This document shows, in pieces, positions 53,716 through 58,666 of a stretch of 64,000 bases of DNA (the first letter of the stretch is position 1; each line of letters opens with the position of its first letter). The notes under the pieces were generated by a model. That model was not told the origin of the DNA. It saw only the letters and a program-made list of their open reading frames with translations, and did no database searches. A program made the translations under genes and the position numbers. This DNA is from an uncultured Pelagibacteraceae bacterium (GTDB lineage Bacteria; Pseudomonadota; Alphaproteobacteria; Pelagibacterales; Pelagibacteraceae): positions 1 to 64,000 of the forward strand of contig CACMAX010000007.1 of NCBI GenBank assembly GCA_902611845.1. Direction: 5' to 3'.

Positions 53716-53801
53716 TGGTGCCCTCGGCCAGACTCGAACTGGCACTCCCAAAAGGGCAAGGATTTTAAGTCCTTTGTGTCTACCAATTTCACCACGAGGG
53801 C
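53716..53801 (-). tRNA. tRNA-Leu (UAA), intact; apparent integration target
   Basis: GCCCTCGTGGTGAAATTGGTAGACAC...CTTAAAA loop...long variable arm...GTTCGAGTCTGGCCGAGGGCACCA. Confidence 0.96.
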
Positions 53802-53803
53802 AT
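53763..53803. repeat. Att-like core copy A (within intact tRNA-Leu): TTTTAAGTCCTTTGTGTCTACCAATTTCACCACGAGGGCAT
   Basis: Same 41-bp string recurs at 55746 and 58596. Confidence 0.95.
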
Positions 53804-53864
53804 TATTTGAGTTGTGATTACTTACTTTTTTTAACATTAAAAATCAAATTTTTTATTTTCCATT

Positions 53865-53887
53865 ACTACACTAGAACTACACTAGTT
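53865..53887 (+). repeat. Element 1 left arm-type repeat: ACTACACTAGAACTACACTAGTT (two ~11-bp units)
   Basis: Identical string at 55670-55692. Confidence 0.9.
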
Positions 53888-53929
53888 TTAAATTAAAATT
53901 TCCTCATATTTAAACATTTTTTAATTTAT

Positions 53930-54790
53930 TTAAGAAATAAATCTGATTTGTTTTTTTCTTGTGCTTAATTTTCCTGCTTTGGTCAATTTATAACGACCCT
54001 TTTTAATTCCTTTTTTGGCAATCTTTAATACTTTTTTAGTATTCCACTCAGGTCTCAAAATTTTTTGTTTGTATTTTTCATTTAAATAAAAATCATTATC
54101 TTCATACTCTTTTACTAAAAGACCTGATACAGATTTAGGCCAATATTGTTTACAAAACTTTCTATTTAATTTTATAAATTCATTAAAACTTATGATCCTA
54201 ATATCTTCCTCCATTGGAAAATTATCTCTTAAGAATTTAAAATTAACGATTATACCTGGTACCATATCTTGAATTGATAAAAAAAAATCTTCTAATTCAT
54301 TAATATTTTTACCGTTTATTGAAACTAACTGATCACCAACTTTCAAAGTTGAGTCAGATAAAAATTCAGGTAATGCGGATGACATCATATCAACAGATGA
54401 AACAACTATGAAACCTGCTTTTTTTTCAACATGTATGCCTATTCTTGATTGTTTCCTCTTCCAATTATCAAATGATTTAATTTTTAAATCATAATTTAAA
54501 ACTTGTGTGTTTCTCTTAACTTCAATATTAACAATAGAATTCCACTTAAGTTTTGTTCGTGCTTTAAATACGTCATATACATTTTTTATTTTAAATTTAT
54601 CTATTTTTAAAATGATATCTTTTGCCTTAAGAATATTTTCTGACTCTAATCCTTTAAGCACTGAATAAATTTTAGGTTTAATATTTTTCAATTGTTTCGG
54701 GGGGAAATGTTTATTGTTAGTTGCTGTTGAAATTACTTCGTTTTTATCTTTAAAGTAAAAACCAAATTTAACCGAAATATTTTTTTTCAT
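53930..54790 (-). CDS. Protein with two PDZ-like domains (element 1 cargo)
   Basis: Read as PDZ-like: LESENILKAKDIILKIDKFKI and TLKVGDQLVSINGKNINELEDF. Start 54790 (MKKNISVKFGF) preferred; the longer ORF start would overlap the MORN gene and translate the 43-bp repeat. Confidence 0.6.
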   Translation of the reverse strand: MKKNISVKFGFYFKDKNEVISTATNNKHFPPKQLKNIKPKIYSVLKGLESENILKAKDIILKIDKFKIKNVYDVFKARTKLKWNSIVNIEVKRNTQVLNYDLKIKSFDNWKRKQSRIGIHVEKKAGFIVVSSVDMMSSALPEFLSDSTLKVGDQLVSINGKNINELEDFFLSIQDMVPGIIVNFKFLRDNFPMEEDIRIISFNEFIKLNRKFCKQYWPKSVSGLLVKEYEDNDFYLNEKYKQKILRPEWNTKKVLKIAKKGIKKGRYKLTKAGKLSTRKKQIRFIS

Positions 54791-54833
54791 TAGTGTACCT
54801 AATTTATATCGTTCTACCTCTAGTGTAGTAAAA
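54791..54833. repeat. 43-bp repeat copy 1, directly upstream of the PDZ gene: TAGTGTACCTAATTTATATCGTTCTACCTCTAGTGTAGTAAAA
   Basis: Matches 55609-55651 with one mismatch; contains inverted version (TAGTGTAGT) of the arm unit. Confidence 0.9.
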
Positions 54834-54839
54834 AATTGT

Positions 54840-55598
54840 TTACTTTTTGTAGATATGCCATTTTTTTTCTCCTCTAAATTTTGCTTTAGTCCGTTTACCA
54901 TTTACATACATACAATCTAAAATTTCACCGTCTGGATAAATTATTTCACATAAACCATCAAAATTACCTTTCTTGAGATTTCCTTTCATTATGGTTCCTT
55001 TTTCTTGATCCTCAATGTCTTTCAAATATGTTATTTTACCTTTGCCGTGTAATTCATCATCTTTCCATTGACCCTCCGTTCTAAATTGATCCGCAACAAG
55101 TAAAACACCATAACCATTTTTTCTGCTATCTTTAAACTCACCTTCATATATCTCTTTAGTTTGTTCGTTTACAAATTTACCTTTTCCATGAAAGTGACTT
55201 TTTTTCCACTCCCCTTTATAAGAATAATAACCAATTGAAACAAACTCTCCTTTTCCATCATAAACTCCATCTTTAAATTCACCTACATAATCCCAGTCAA
55301 GTTTACCATCGTTTAAACTCATAGTGCCATATCCATGCGGAATTTGTTCTTCGGCACTTTTTATTGCTCCATTATATCTTCTGCCATCACCGTAAGTTAA
55401 TGTTGCTCTGATAATCAAGTCATCACCCATTTTTTTGATACTAGGATAACGACTTTCTAGGATTAAAATTTCATCTTTTAATTCCTGATATTCTTCTTCA
55501 CTAACAGGTAATTTTTTATGTTCTGCTTTATAGAAGTTGTATGAATTAAGTAATTCTCTTTTTTTGAGATAATCAGTTTTTATTTTTTTATTTCTCAT
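54840..55598 (-). CDS. MORN-repeat protein (element 1 cargo)
   Basis: Repeated YxGxxKDGxxxGKGxF-like units (YVGEFKDGVYDGKGEF, YKGEWKKSHFHGKGKF, YEGEFKDSRKNGYGVL). Confidence 0.8.
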   Translation of the reverse strand: MRNKKIKTDYLKKRELLNSYNFYKAEHKKLPVSEEEYQELKDEILILESRYPSIKKMGDDLIIRATLTYGDGRRYNGAIKSAEEQIPHGYGTMSLNDGKLDWDYVGEFKDGVYDGKGEFVSIGYYSYKGEWKKSHFHGKGKFVNEQTKEIYEGEFKDSRKNGYGVLLVADQFRTEGQWKDDELHGKGKITYLKDIEDQEKGTIMKGNLKKGNFDGLCEIIYPDGEILDCMYVNGKRTKAKFRGEKKWHIYKK

Positions 55599-55608
55599 AA
55601 AATTAAAC

Positions 55609-55651
55609 TAGTGTACCTAATTTGTATCGTTCTACCTCTAGTGTAGTAAAA
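55609..55651. repeat. 43-bp repeat copy 2, just upstream of the MORN gene
   Basis: One mismatch to 54791-54833. Confidence 0.9.
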
Positions 55652-55669
55652 CATTTCGTCATTCTACCA

Positions 55670-55692
55670 ACTACACTAGAACTACACTAGTT
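55670..55692 (+). repeat. Element 1 right arm-type repeat: ACTACACTAGAACTACACTAGTT
   Basis: Identical to 53865-53887. Confidence 0.9.
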
Positions 55693-55745
55693 CAATTTTA
55701 TCAAAAAATGTTGAGTTTATTAGTGGAACCTTATTTTTGAATACT

Positions 55746-55786
55746 TTTTAAGTCCTTTGTGTCTACCAATTTCACCACGAGGGCAT
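55746..55786 (-). pseudogene. tRNA-Leu(UAA) 5'-half fragment, att-like core copy B (element 1/element 2 junction)
   Basis: 41 bp identical to 53763-53803; stops in the anticodon loop. Confidence 0.93.
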
Positions 55787-55816
55787 GAGTTATTTTCATG
55801 AGTGTTTATGCCAATA

Positions 55817-55845
55817 TTTATAATTGAACAAGAGGAATAAGTAAA
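55817..55845 (-). promoter_or_regulatory. Putative displaced tRNA promoter (copy B), TTTACT-N17-TATAAA, reading toward the MORN/PDZ genes
   Basis: Same hexamers and spacing as copy C; 106-bp block 55745-55850 matches 58595-58700 with 5 mismatches. Confidence 0.6.
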
Positions 55846-55857
55846 TTTTTTTTATTT

Positions 55858-55888
55858 TATCTCTCTAACGTCTAGTCTACGTCTAGTT
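55858..55888 (+). repeat. Element 2 left arm-type repeat: TATCTCTCTAACGTCTAGTCTACGTCTAGTT
   Basis: One mismatch to 58440-58470; ACGTCTAG units 11 bp apart. Confidence 0.9.
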
Positions 55889-55923
55889 GTCCTATAAAAT
55901 CCTATTTTAATTTTAGCTAATTA

Positions 55924-58419
55924 TTATTTAACATTGGCTTGTAAATAATTTAAAATGGAATCTGTCCCACCTAAAACGCTCTCAAACAATTCAATAGCCT
56001 CAACGTCGTCTGTTTCTTTAAAGTAATCATAGTGACACTGTTGGTTTTTTGCAATTTTCTCATTTTTAGTCATACTTATGAAGCTCATCCAGCCCCATTG
56101 ATTTAACAATCTAGAACCACATTTACTTTGAATATTTTCGCTGTGTCTAAAGAAAGGTATAATAGCATCTTCTCCTGGTTCTTCTCCAATATTAATCACT
56201 AAAATTTGATCATCAGTATCAAGTTTTCTCTTATAAACTAAAGCTTCTTCAAGTTTAACTTTCTTATCAACTTCATTTATTAAATTTCCTTTAATAATTG
56301 ATTTATATAATTGATCTTCTTTTTGCCTTTTTGGTTTAATTGGATTTGTATTAGATGAGAAGTTTACATTATTTGATTTAAGTTTAAATATTCCATTTTC
56401 ATAATTAAATATTGTAAAAATATCTTTCATTGGTTCTGCAATTTCCTCGGTTATTTTCGCTTTAGCTATTTTTTTTATATCATTTGGTAAAGTTCTTAAA
56501 TTTTCATTATCTTTTAAATATTTTAATATAGAATTTGTCCCAGCTAAAATAGCTTCAAATAATTCCAAAGACTCAGCATCATTAGACTCAGAAAAATAAT
56601 TATGAATACATTGTTGGTTTTCTGCAAAATTTACATTATTAGTTTCACTTACAAAATTCATCCAACCGCCCTCAATGAAATTTAACTCCATAAATAACAT
56701 GCCACATTTATTTATAATATTTTCACGGTGTCTAAACAAAGGCATGATTGTATCTTCATCTGCCTTCCTTCCTATATAAACAGCTAAAATTTGATCCTTC
56801 ATTTCATCTGTTAATTTATCCTGGTAAACCAATGCTCCATCAAATTTAATATTTTTATCATCTTCAGATATCAAATTTCCTTTGATAAATGCTTTATATA
56901 ATTGGTGATCTTTTTGTTTATTTGGCTTAATAGGATTTGTGTTTGATGCAAATTTTACATTATTTGATTTAAGCTTAAATGTACCACCTAACATATTGTT
57001 AAAAATTTTAAATTCAGAATATCTAAATTTTTTTTCATAATCTTTTGGTTTTTCAGATAGTTTTTTTGTCCAAAAATTGTCCCCTTCTGACATTATATTT
57101 GCATTAAATATCTCTATTGGTTGAATATGATAATATGCACCATGGAATGGATGAACTTTAACTTCATGAGGTGAAAATTTATCCTCAAGCCACTCAGGAT
57201 GTTTCTCTGTCACAAATCTTATTGACCAATTGATATAAGATTGTTTGTCCGGGATCCTCCCTATTTTCAAATCATGCTGGTAATTTTCAAGACCACCTCG
57301 TTCATAAATAACGTGTTCCATATGTGTTTTAAAAGGTTTTGTTCCACATGATGCTGCGCCAACTCCTTTTTTTGCTATATGTTTTATTAAAGTAATATCA
57401 TCATATATTTTGAAAAGTTGCTCGTACGCTTCAGCTAAAGTTTTTCCATGTCTTGTTTTATAATCAAGAAGATTAAATTTTGCTAAATTCAATAACTCCA
57501 CATTAGTAGAAAATAATTGGCTTGTAGAGTATGAATATCCAATTGCTTTACAACCTTTTGCTGCTGTTGGAATAAAATATCCTTCGTCACCAATCATGCT
57601 TAAAACATAGTCTAAATCCCACAACCCTTTAGACCAAAGTTCTTTATCTTGCATAACTATAGCCAACGCTAATTCAGCTGAAGCAAATCTCAATCTTACA
57701 GTTCCACAATTATTAACTTTATATTTTTTTCTATTCAGCTTCATAGGATTTTTAATTGGACAAAGTTTTGTTCTACTACGATTGCCATCTCTATCAAGTC
57801 GTTCAATCATTGCTTTATCTTTAAAATAATTTTGGATAGTTTTATGCTGATCTTCTGTAAAATTGAATTGATCATAATTAACTGCATAAAATGTTACTAG
57901 TGGAGAAAGAACACCCCATAACTGATAGTCTCTTGGATTAAAATTATCCTTCCCTGAATTTTTGTAAACCCAATTATCTTTTTTGGCAGTTGCAATTTTT
58001 AATATTATTTCTCCATGTAAATCGATTCCTCCCTCAAAATCTATTGTGGCATAACTCATTAAAGATCTCTGACATTTTTTAAAAATTTTTTCTTGAATTG
58101 TAGGAGTGCTTGGCACTTGAAATTCACTTATTACTTTTGTGCATAGTTTTTTTGATAAAATTTTTCCATCAATCTCATCTTTCCAAAGATAATTAGTGTG
58201 AGACCAATTATTGGCCTGTATATTTGTTCGATAAAACTTATATCTGTCATAGTCTTTTATAATTCTATTCACTTTAGGTAGTGGAACCTTAAGAAGCTCA
58301 CTGGATCTAACATGATCATCCATCATCTCCTTAGCTTCATCTGAATAAATTTGTTCTGCTAATATTGGATTTGTAAAAGTAAAAATTGAAAATAATAAAA
58401 ATATTAAAAATTTTTTCAT
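55924..58419 (-). CDS. Secreted alginate-lyase-like (alpha-toroid) protein with tandemly duplicated C-terminal domain (element 2 cargo)
   Basis: Signal peptide MKKFLIFLLFSIFTFTNPILA; NCGTVRLRFASAELALAIVMQDKELW...DEGYFIPTAAKGCKAIGYS resembles alginate lyase-family toroids; two related C-terminal blocks each beginning FKLKSNNV. Confidence 0.6.
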   Translation of the reverse strand: MKKFLIFLLFSIFTFTNPILAEQIYSDEAKEMMDDHVRSSELLKVPLPKVNRIIKDYDRYKFYRTNIQANNWSHTNYLWKDEIDGKILSKKLCTKVISEFQVPSTPTIQEKIFKKCQRSLMSYATIDFEGGIDLHGEIILKIATAKKDNWVYKNSGKDNFNPRDYQLWGVLSPLVTFYAVNYDQFNFTEDQHKTIQNYFKDKAMIERLDRDGNRSRTKLCPIKNPMKLNRKKYKVNNCGTVRLRFASAELALAIVMQDKELWSKGLWDLDYVLSMIGDEGYFIPTAAKGCKAIGYSYSTSQLFSTNVELLNLAKFNLLDYKTRHGKTLAEAYEQLFKIYDDITLIKHIAKKGVGAASCGTKPFKTHMEHVIYERGGLENYQHDLKIGRIPDKQSYINWSIRFVTEKHPEWLEDKFSPHEVKVHPFHGAYYHIQPIEIFNANIMSEGDNFWTKKLSEKPKDYEKKFRYSEFKIFNNMLGGTFKLKSNNVKFASNTNPIKPNKQKDHQLYKAFIKGNLISEDDKNIKFDGALVYQDKLTDEMKDQILAVYIGRKADEDTIMPLFRHRENIINKCGMLFMELNFIEGGWMNFVSETNNVNFAENQQCIHNYFSESNDAESLELFEAILAGTNSILKYLKDNENLRTLPNDIKKIAKAKITEEIAEPMKDIFTIFNYENGIFKLKSNNVNFSSNTNPIKPKRQKEDQLYKSIIKGNLINEVDKKVKLEEALVYKRKLDTDDQILVINIGEEPGEDAIIPFFRHSENIQSKCGSRLLNQWGWMSFISMTKNEKIAKNQQCHYDYFKETDDVEAIELFESVLGGTDSILNYLQANVK

Positions 58420-58439
58420 ATATATTAATAATAATATTC

Positions 58440-58470
58440 TATCTCTTTAACGTCTAGTCTACGTCTAGTT
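58440..58470 (+). repeat. Element 2 right arm-type repeat: TATCTCTTTAACGTCTAGTCTACGTCTAGTT
   Basis: One mismatch to 55858-55888. Confidence 0.9.
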
Positions 58471-58548
58471 TAAGAAAATTTATTATACATATTTTCAAAT
58501 AATAATAGGTTAAGGTTTTATTAAAATGTAGGATTTGATGGGATTTAA

Positions 58549-58578
58549 GACTGTATGAGACTGTGTGAGACTATAAAA
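58549..58578 (+). repeat. Three tandem 10-bp units GACTGTATGA / GACTGTGTGA / GACTATAAAA
   Basis: Read directly; lies between the element 2 right arm and copy C. Confidence 0.7.
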
Positions 58579-58595
58579 TATCTCAACGCTATGTT

Positions 58596-58636
58596 TTTTA
58601 AGTCCTTTGTGTCTACCAATTTCACCACGAGGGCAT
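58596..58636 (-). pseudogene. tRNA-Leu(UAA) 5'-half fragment, att-like core copy C (outer boundary)
   Basis: 41 bp identical to 53763-53803. Confidence 0.93.
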
Positions 58637-58666
58637 GAGTTATTTTCATGAGTATTTATGCTAATA

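Follow-up and report, generated by a model that had tools for sequence, protein, structure and literature searches.

Matched arm repeats in small insertions at tRNA-Leu(UAA) of Pelagibacter

Results

The window analysed here, a stretch of 64,000 nucleotides from an uncultured Pelagibacteraceae bacterium (positions 1 to 64,000 of contig CACMAX010000007.1, assembly GCA_902611845.1), contains an intact tRNA-Leu(UAA) gene with two tandem insertions on its 5' side (Table 1). Its close relatives indicate that the genome is a Pelagibacter (SAR11). The repeated core that bounds the insertions is the 5' half of the tRNA, starting at the anticodon loop. Each insertion ends with a copy of this half, and core copy 3 adjoins the displaced original upstream region of the gene. 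The first-pass annotation of the window had assigned the same target to both elements, and both do lie between direct repeats of the tRNA-Leu(UAA) 5' half, the arrangement (partial-tRNA direct repeats with the intact tRNA at one end) by which integrative elements at tRNA sites are recognised.

Table 1. Features of the tRNA-Leu(UAA) locus in the window.
Feature	Position	Strand	Source or remark
Intact tRNA-Leu(UAA), the target	53716..53801	-	ARAGORN
Core copy 1, inside intact tRNA-Leu(UAA)	53763..53808	+	repeat search
Element 1, class A, 1983 bp core to core	53763..55749	.	repeat search
Element 1 left arm pair ACTACACTAGAACTACACTAG, ACTACACTAG unit at 53865	53865..53885	+	repeat search
Element 1 cargo, PDZ-domain protein	53930..54790	-	start = ATG at 54790 (assumed)
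Element 1 cargo, MORN-repeat protein	54840..55598	-	ORF + domain search
Element 1 right arm pair, ACTACACTAG unit at 55670	55670..55690	+	repeat search
Core copy 2, left end of element 2	55746..55791	+	repeat search
Element 2, class B cassette, 2850 bp core to core, single gene	55750..58599	.	repeat search
Element 2 left arm, TATCTCTCTA flank and ACGTCTAG units at 55868 and 55879	55853..55888	+	
Conserved cassette motif TCCTATAAAATCCTA, +140 from core, element 2	55890..55904	+	
Element 2 cargo gene, 831 aa, putative signal peptide	55924..58419	-	ORF list, Pfam
Element 2 right arm, flank and ACGTCTAG units at 58450 and 58461	58435..58470	+	
Element 2 right copy of cassette motif (TAGGATTTGATGGGA), inverted relative to left copy	58529..58543	-	
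Three 10-bp direct repeats AGACTGTATG/AGACTGTGTG/AGACT, right arm to core, element 2	58548..58572	+	
Core copy 3, right end of element 2	58596..58641	+	repeat search

Element 2 carries a 31-bp repeat, TATCTCTYTAACGTCTAGTCTACGTCTAGTT, at 55858-55888 and 58440-58470, with one mismatch between the copies. This repeat had been noticed earlier and is not due to chance; with two mismatches it can be extended to the 36-bp arms of Table 1. Allowing for up to two mismatches, the window has exactly two occurrences of ACGTCTAG-N3-ACGTCTAG, against 0.01 expected, and none of 100 shuffles reached that number. Relative to the core, the arms of element 2 lie at +118 on the left and at -150/-139 on the right. 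In element 1 the units are likewise spaced by 11 bp, at +99/+110 and -79/-68. The annotation had described two elements of the same architecture with different arm sequences. The common 11-bp period and the difference in sequence (ACGTCTAG versus ACTACACTAG) were confirmed and the left positions roughly agree (+99 and +118), but the right positions do not, and the architecture of the two elements is similar rather than the same.

Neither element encodes a recombinase, as no match to PF00589 lies within element 1 or element 2; across the genome to which the window belongs (91.7% complete) the sole match is a 325-aa Xer-sized protein elsewhere. Element 2 thus lacks the integrase of its own that characterises tyrosine-recombinase elements at tRNA sites. 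Its 831-aa cargo protein belongs to no Pfam family, and an AlphaFold model (pLDDT 35) was too low in confidence for use. The C-terminal region of this protein is duplicated (56117-56986 of the window, 71-81% DNA identity, period ~585-591 bp). Element 1 in turn contains a 47-bp repeat upstream of both cargo genes (54791-54837 and 55609-55655), which holds arm-like CTAGTGTA sites in inverse orientation and may be a shared promoter or operator.

An exact scan for ACGTCTAGNNNACGTCTAG across ~85,000 genomes yielded ~20 Pelagibacteraceae loci, nearly all of them with at least one copy at +118 (core start to arm start) or +150 (arm start to core start) of tRNA-Leu(UAA). Cargos that differ from the 831-aa gene occur among these loci (L002, L012). 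The arm pair goes with the insertion, not with the gene, and the repeats mark insertion ends, as the annotation had supposed. An ordinary duplication unrelated to insertion ends, the alternative named at the time, fails on the observation that other strains keep the arm-core distance with different cargos in between. One Amylibacter chromosome (OX044354.1; L008, L009, L011, L021, L024, L025, L034, L046, L048, L058, L061) also has at least 11 scattered copies of ACGTCTAGNNNACGTCTAG, and the sequence is frequent in Solitalea (L005, L007, L030, L041, L053 and others); these copies are probably an unrelated interspersed repeat.

The core is present in 184 of 250 Pelagibacter genomes, many of which have two to five tandem copies. 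From 72 Pelagibacter loci we extracted 90 elements, with lengths from 0.27 to 15.5 kb and a median of 2.5 kb. De novo comparison of their ends gave a dominant layout, TATCTCYCTR-N8-N3-N8-TT, with one copy at about +108 relative to the left core and a second at about -160 relative to the right core. Both ends score for this layout in 67 of 88 elements (60 under a stricter cut), and the positions are fixed: the left arm lies at +108 in 59 of the 67 and the right arm at -160 ± 1 in 64. Conserved in the tRNA-Leu cassettes are the motif TCCTATAAAATCCTA, at +140, and an inverted copy of it near -72. Between core and right arm, GACT sites recur every 10 bp; they are possibly excisionase sites and are present both in cassettes and in the integrase-bearing elements L101 and L113 described below. 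Class A (element 1 of the window, L088, L135, L144) has CTACACTAG at the positions given above for element 1, plus inverted copies. Class C (L110, L112, L145) has a GGTGTCTAAC-type left arm and a left end similar to that of the satellite G202; no right arm was recognised in its members. The elements outside the layout classes fit none of them or are degraded. The annotation had suggested two related mobilisation systems sharing one attachment site. The common target and the differing arms hold, but this single tRNA has at least three layout classes and ~25 arm types.

The variety resides in the N8 unit, of which there are ~25 forms as judged by the second-unit 7-mer. This 7-mer is identical at both ends in 51 of 60 elements, compared with 3.8 expected. 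Of the 16 unit bases, 14.6 agree on average within an element (median 16) and 9.2 between elements; none of 20000 permutations exceeded 10.5. The matching is robust when each arm type is represented by one element (14.98 versus at most 11.8). In the variable unit columns the two ends share 0.2-1.6 bits of mutual information; most flanking columns are close to zero, and a few columns beside the units and in the spacer reach 0.1-0.35 bits. Tandem neighbours gave no signal of avoiding a common arm type (1 of 15 alike, 0.7 expected). Three elements (L012 element 1, L118, L127) are hybrids with left and right arms of different types, possibly recombinants between cassettes. Three others (L093, L138, L187; 267, 275 and 251 bp) have a single arm pair, with a left half joined to a right half, and their lengths fit arm-arm recombination (268 and 252 bp expected). 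Such scars are comparable to solo LTRs.

The cargo is compact, mostly one to three genes per element: 240 ORFs of at least 80 aa in total, with one in 34 elements and two in 23. The longest ORF is on the tRNA strand in 83 of 86 elements, and the edges of the ORFs, at median core distances of 166 and 179 bp, come immediately inward of the arms. Cargo and arms are independent of each other. L103 and L108 have both genes in common and differ in their arms (GTTTCTAG and GCTACTAG), and one arm type is found with different cargos. Among the cargo kinds are several types of restriction-modification system, a ZorA-type protein, trypsin-like and caspase-like peptidases, genes of transport and metabolism and many unknown proteins. 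For the 831-aa gene of element 2, identity reaches 96.2% with L092 and 92.0% with L020, compared with 75.4% and 75.7% for the ppnK gene beside the tRNA. In L013 the gene is 99.2% identical, ppnK 84.3% and the outer flank 74.0%. These identities indicate that element 2 has moved between diverged lineages.

Insertions at a second target, tRNA-Ser(UGA), follow the same layout rule, with arms at about +114 and -138, and the left copy of TCCTATAAAATCCTA is present there too. The arms are ACTTCAAG at both ends of L183, R-CTTCTAG at both ends of L184, and CGTTCTAG in L186, with one mismatch on the right; L185 is similar and less perfect. As CTTCTAG arms are also found at tRNA-Ser(UGA), this unit occurs with two different cores.

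No integrase gene was found in 88 of the 90 elements. The two carriers, L101_e1 (7.8 kb) and L113_e1 (8.8 kb), encode tyrosine integrases of 545 and 551 aa that are 49% identical, a primase (DUF5906, AEP), a RusA-like resolvase and a small protein that reads as putatively helix-turn-helix-like. With an integrase and a replication module among few genes, they have the composition of phage satellites. A third integrase-bearing element, G202 (10.2 kb), lies at tRNA-Leu and a fourth, G662, at tRNA-Ser(UGA). The left units are at +119/+130 in L101 and L113, +106/+117 in G202 and +114/+125 in G662; the right units are at -177/-152 (L101), -178/-153 (L113), -151 (G202, one copy) and -165/-140 (G662). 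In L101, L113 and G662 the element's own unit thus stands twice on either side of the core; in G202 it stands twice on the left and once on the right. In L101 and L113 the right units overlap the first codons of int. The right-arm units of the satellites are 25 bp apart, in contrast to 11 bp in the cassettes, and the satellites may therefore not be the exact helpers. The annotation had proposed asking whether arm sequence follows integrase clade. Only these four integrase-bearing elements were usable for that purpose, and in each of them the two ends carry the element's own arm unit.

The units of L101 and L113 equal those of two cassette groups. Under a column model an exact match between satellite and cassette has a chance of ~0.34 each, so the match does not prove which helper serves which cassette, and we set this identity aside as too weak to stand alone. 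No integrase flanked by ACGTCTAG arms was found in the genomes searched, and the phage collection contains no relative of the L101 or L113 integrase. Integrase searches at the order and family level returned largely the same few elements. The N-terminal part of the integrases matched none of the arm-binding families, giving a weak hit to 3jtz only, and no sequence relation to the P4 integrase N-terminus was detected. Temperate pelagiphages with a tRNA-Leu attP are known (PMC3861242), and HTVC105P, HTVC109P and S35-C6 (L175, L176, L177) have an identical or near-identical tRNA-Leu core beside the integrase. As candidate direct owners of the arms they were rejected, having no matching arms.

Discussion

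Lambda and P4 integrases bind both core and arm sites. We consider it likely that element 2 is a site-specific att cassette without an integrase, moved in trans by an integrase that reads its arm unit. If element 2 were circularised, its ends would rebuild the attP of a tyrosine integrase, with a tRNA-Leu 5'-half core and two direct-repeat pairs of an 8-bp unit. A tyrosine integrase acting in trans would bind the core and both arm pairs and excise the cassette as a circle. Its arm-binding part would read the 8-bp unit, and reinsertion would take place at the anticodon-loop end of tRNA-Leu(UAA). Each insertion would give tRNA-Leu a new 5' half and upstream region, and repeated insertion would produce tandem arrays. 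Different arm units would be served by different integrases on one common core. This proposal, in which the units act as integrase arm sites, builds on directly observed features: the boundaries and geometry of the elements, their matched ends, the independence of the cargo, the horizontal spread and the lack of an integrase gene. We infer that the helpers are satellite-type or phage integrases of differing arm specificity, and transfer from cell to cell would probably occur via phage particles, vesicles or satellites. L124_e1, whose arms are TGTGCTGG, would be a cassette of the same kind.

The cassettes could alternatively be satellite remnants that have lost the integrase, comparable to CIMEs, their arms being disused leftovers. 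Tandem CIMEs at tRNA genes have been described (PMC5704250), and the integrase-bearing elements have the core and left arm geometry in common with the cassettes. Simple decay, from an ICE or IME as well, is nevertheless made less likely by the cassette motif pair, TCCTATAAAATCCTA and its inverse, which is missing in L101 and L113, and by the constant cargo edges and gene orientation. The recent spread between distant hosts and the constraint on arm matching also do not suit idle remnants, and we regard decay as improbable.

It is harder still to see the repeats as regulatory sites for the cargo genes (operators or parts of promoters) instead of recombination sites. The right arm does immediately precede the 831-aa gene's start codon, and the CTAGTGTA sites precede both cargo genes of element 1, but the left copy lies past the stop codon of the 831-aa gene, the distances are fixed to the tRNA core and not to the genes, the arms are independent of cargo type, and a similar arrangement surrounds the core in satellites that do encode an integrase. 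Matching of the ends by gene conversion or a recent duplication within the element, with no specificity behind it, is scarcely credible. The ends are direct repeats, and the single-arm-pair scars suggest that arms can recombine; conversion, however, would homogenise the flanks too, whereas the matching is concentrated in the unit columns and most flanking columns vary independently. Conversion tracts extending past the arm units were sought and not seen. The covariation of unit columns in these alignments speaks for matched recognition, and we read it as selection for one reader protein that binds both ends.

Several known systems resemble the att cassettes in part. Additive flexible genomic islands in Ca. 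Actinomarinales (PMC7771536) and Methylophilaceae (PMC10872708) add genes beside a tRNA, with partial tRNA direct repeats; the tRNA-Leu insertions, with variable content at a tRNA and partial tRNA repeats, are of this type, but the portions of these two reports available to us do not describe arm sites, end matching or recognition types. A CIME, a cis-mobilizable element defined as decayed, keeps attL and attR without an integrase and accretes in tandem at tRNA genes (PMC5704250). Element 2 likewise keeps attL and attR without integrase and transfer genes, but the cassettes give the impression of diversified, purpose-built units. Among marine satellites, tycheposons and VEIMEs (cited in PMC11389934) are tRNA-targeting tyrosine recombinase elements of ocean bacteria, and L101 and L113, with their integrase and primase, resemble satellites; the cassettes, in contrast, have no recombinase or replication gene. 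The attP of phage P4 (NC_001609) has adjacent 12-bp arm repeats ~110-140 bp from the core, one of which is annotated where int begins, the same place as the right units of L101 and L113, but P4 encodes its own integrase. CALIN and MITE are also non-autonomous units moved by a partner's enzyme (PMC11389934), whereas the cassettes have a two-sided attP geometry and a tRNA core, not attC sites or transposon inverted repeats. In the open-access literature we came across neither matched arm codes nor a SAR11 cassette family of this kind.

SAR11 bacteria are among the most abundant in the ocean, and to our knowledge it is poorly understood how they gain accessory genes despite a streamlined genome. 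The odds seem to us about even that SAR11 maintains an integron-like cassette economy on phage-type attP sites, in which dozens of mutually exclusive 8-bp arm codes are served in trans by satellite or phage integrases, and codes and tRNA cores combine independently. If so, small cassettes that need the integrase of another element would carry much of the variable content of SAR11 at these tRNAs, restriction-modification and Zorya-type defence genes among it. The cassettes would also constitute a natural set of ~25 integrase arm specificities on one common core, useful for studying DNA recognition by arm-binding domains and for orthogonal tools of genome integration.
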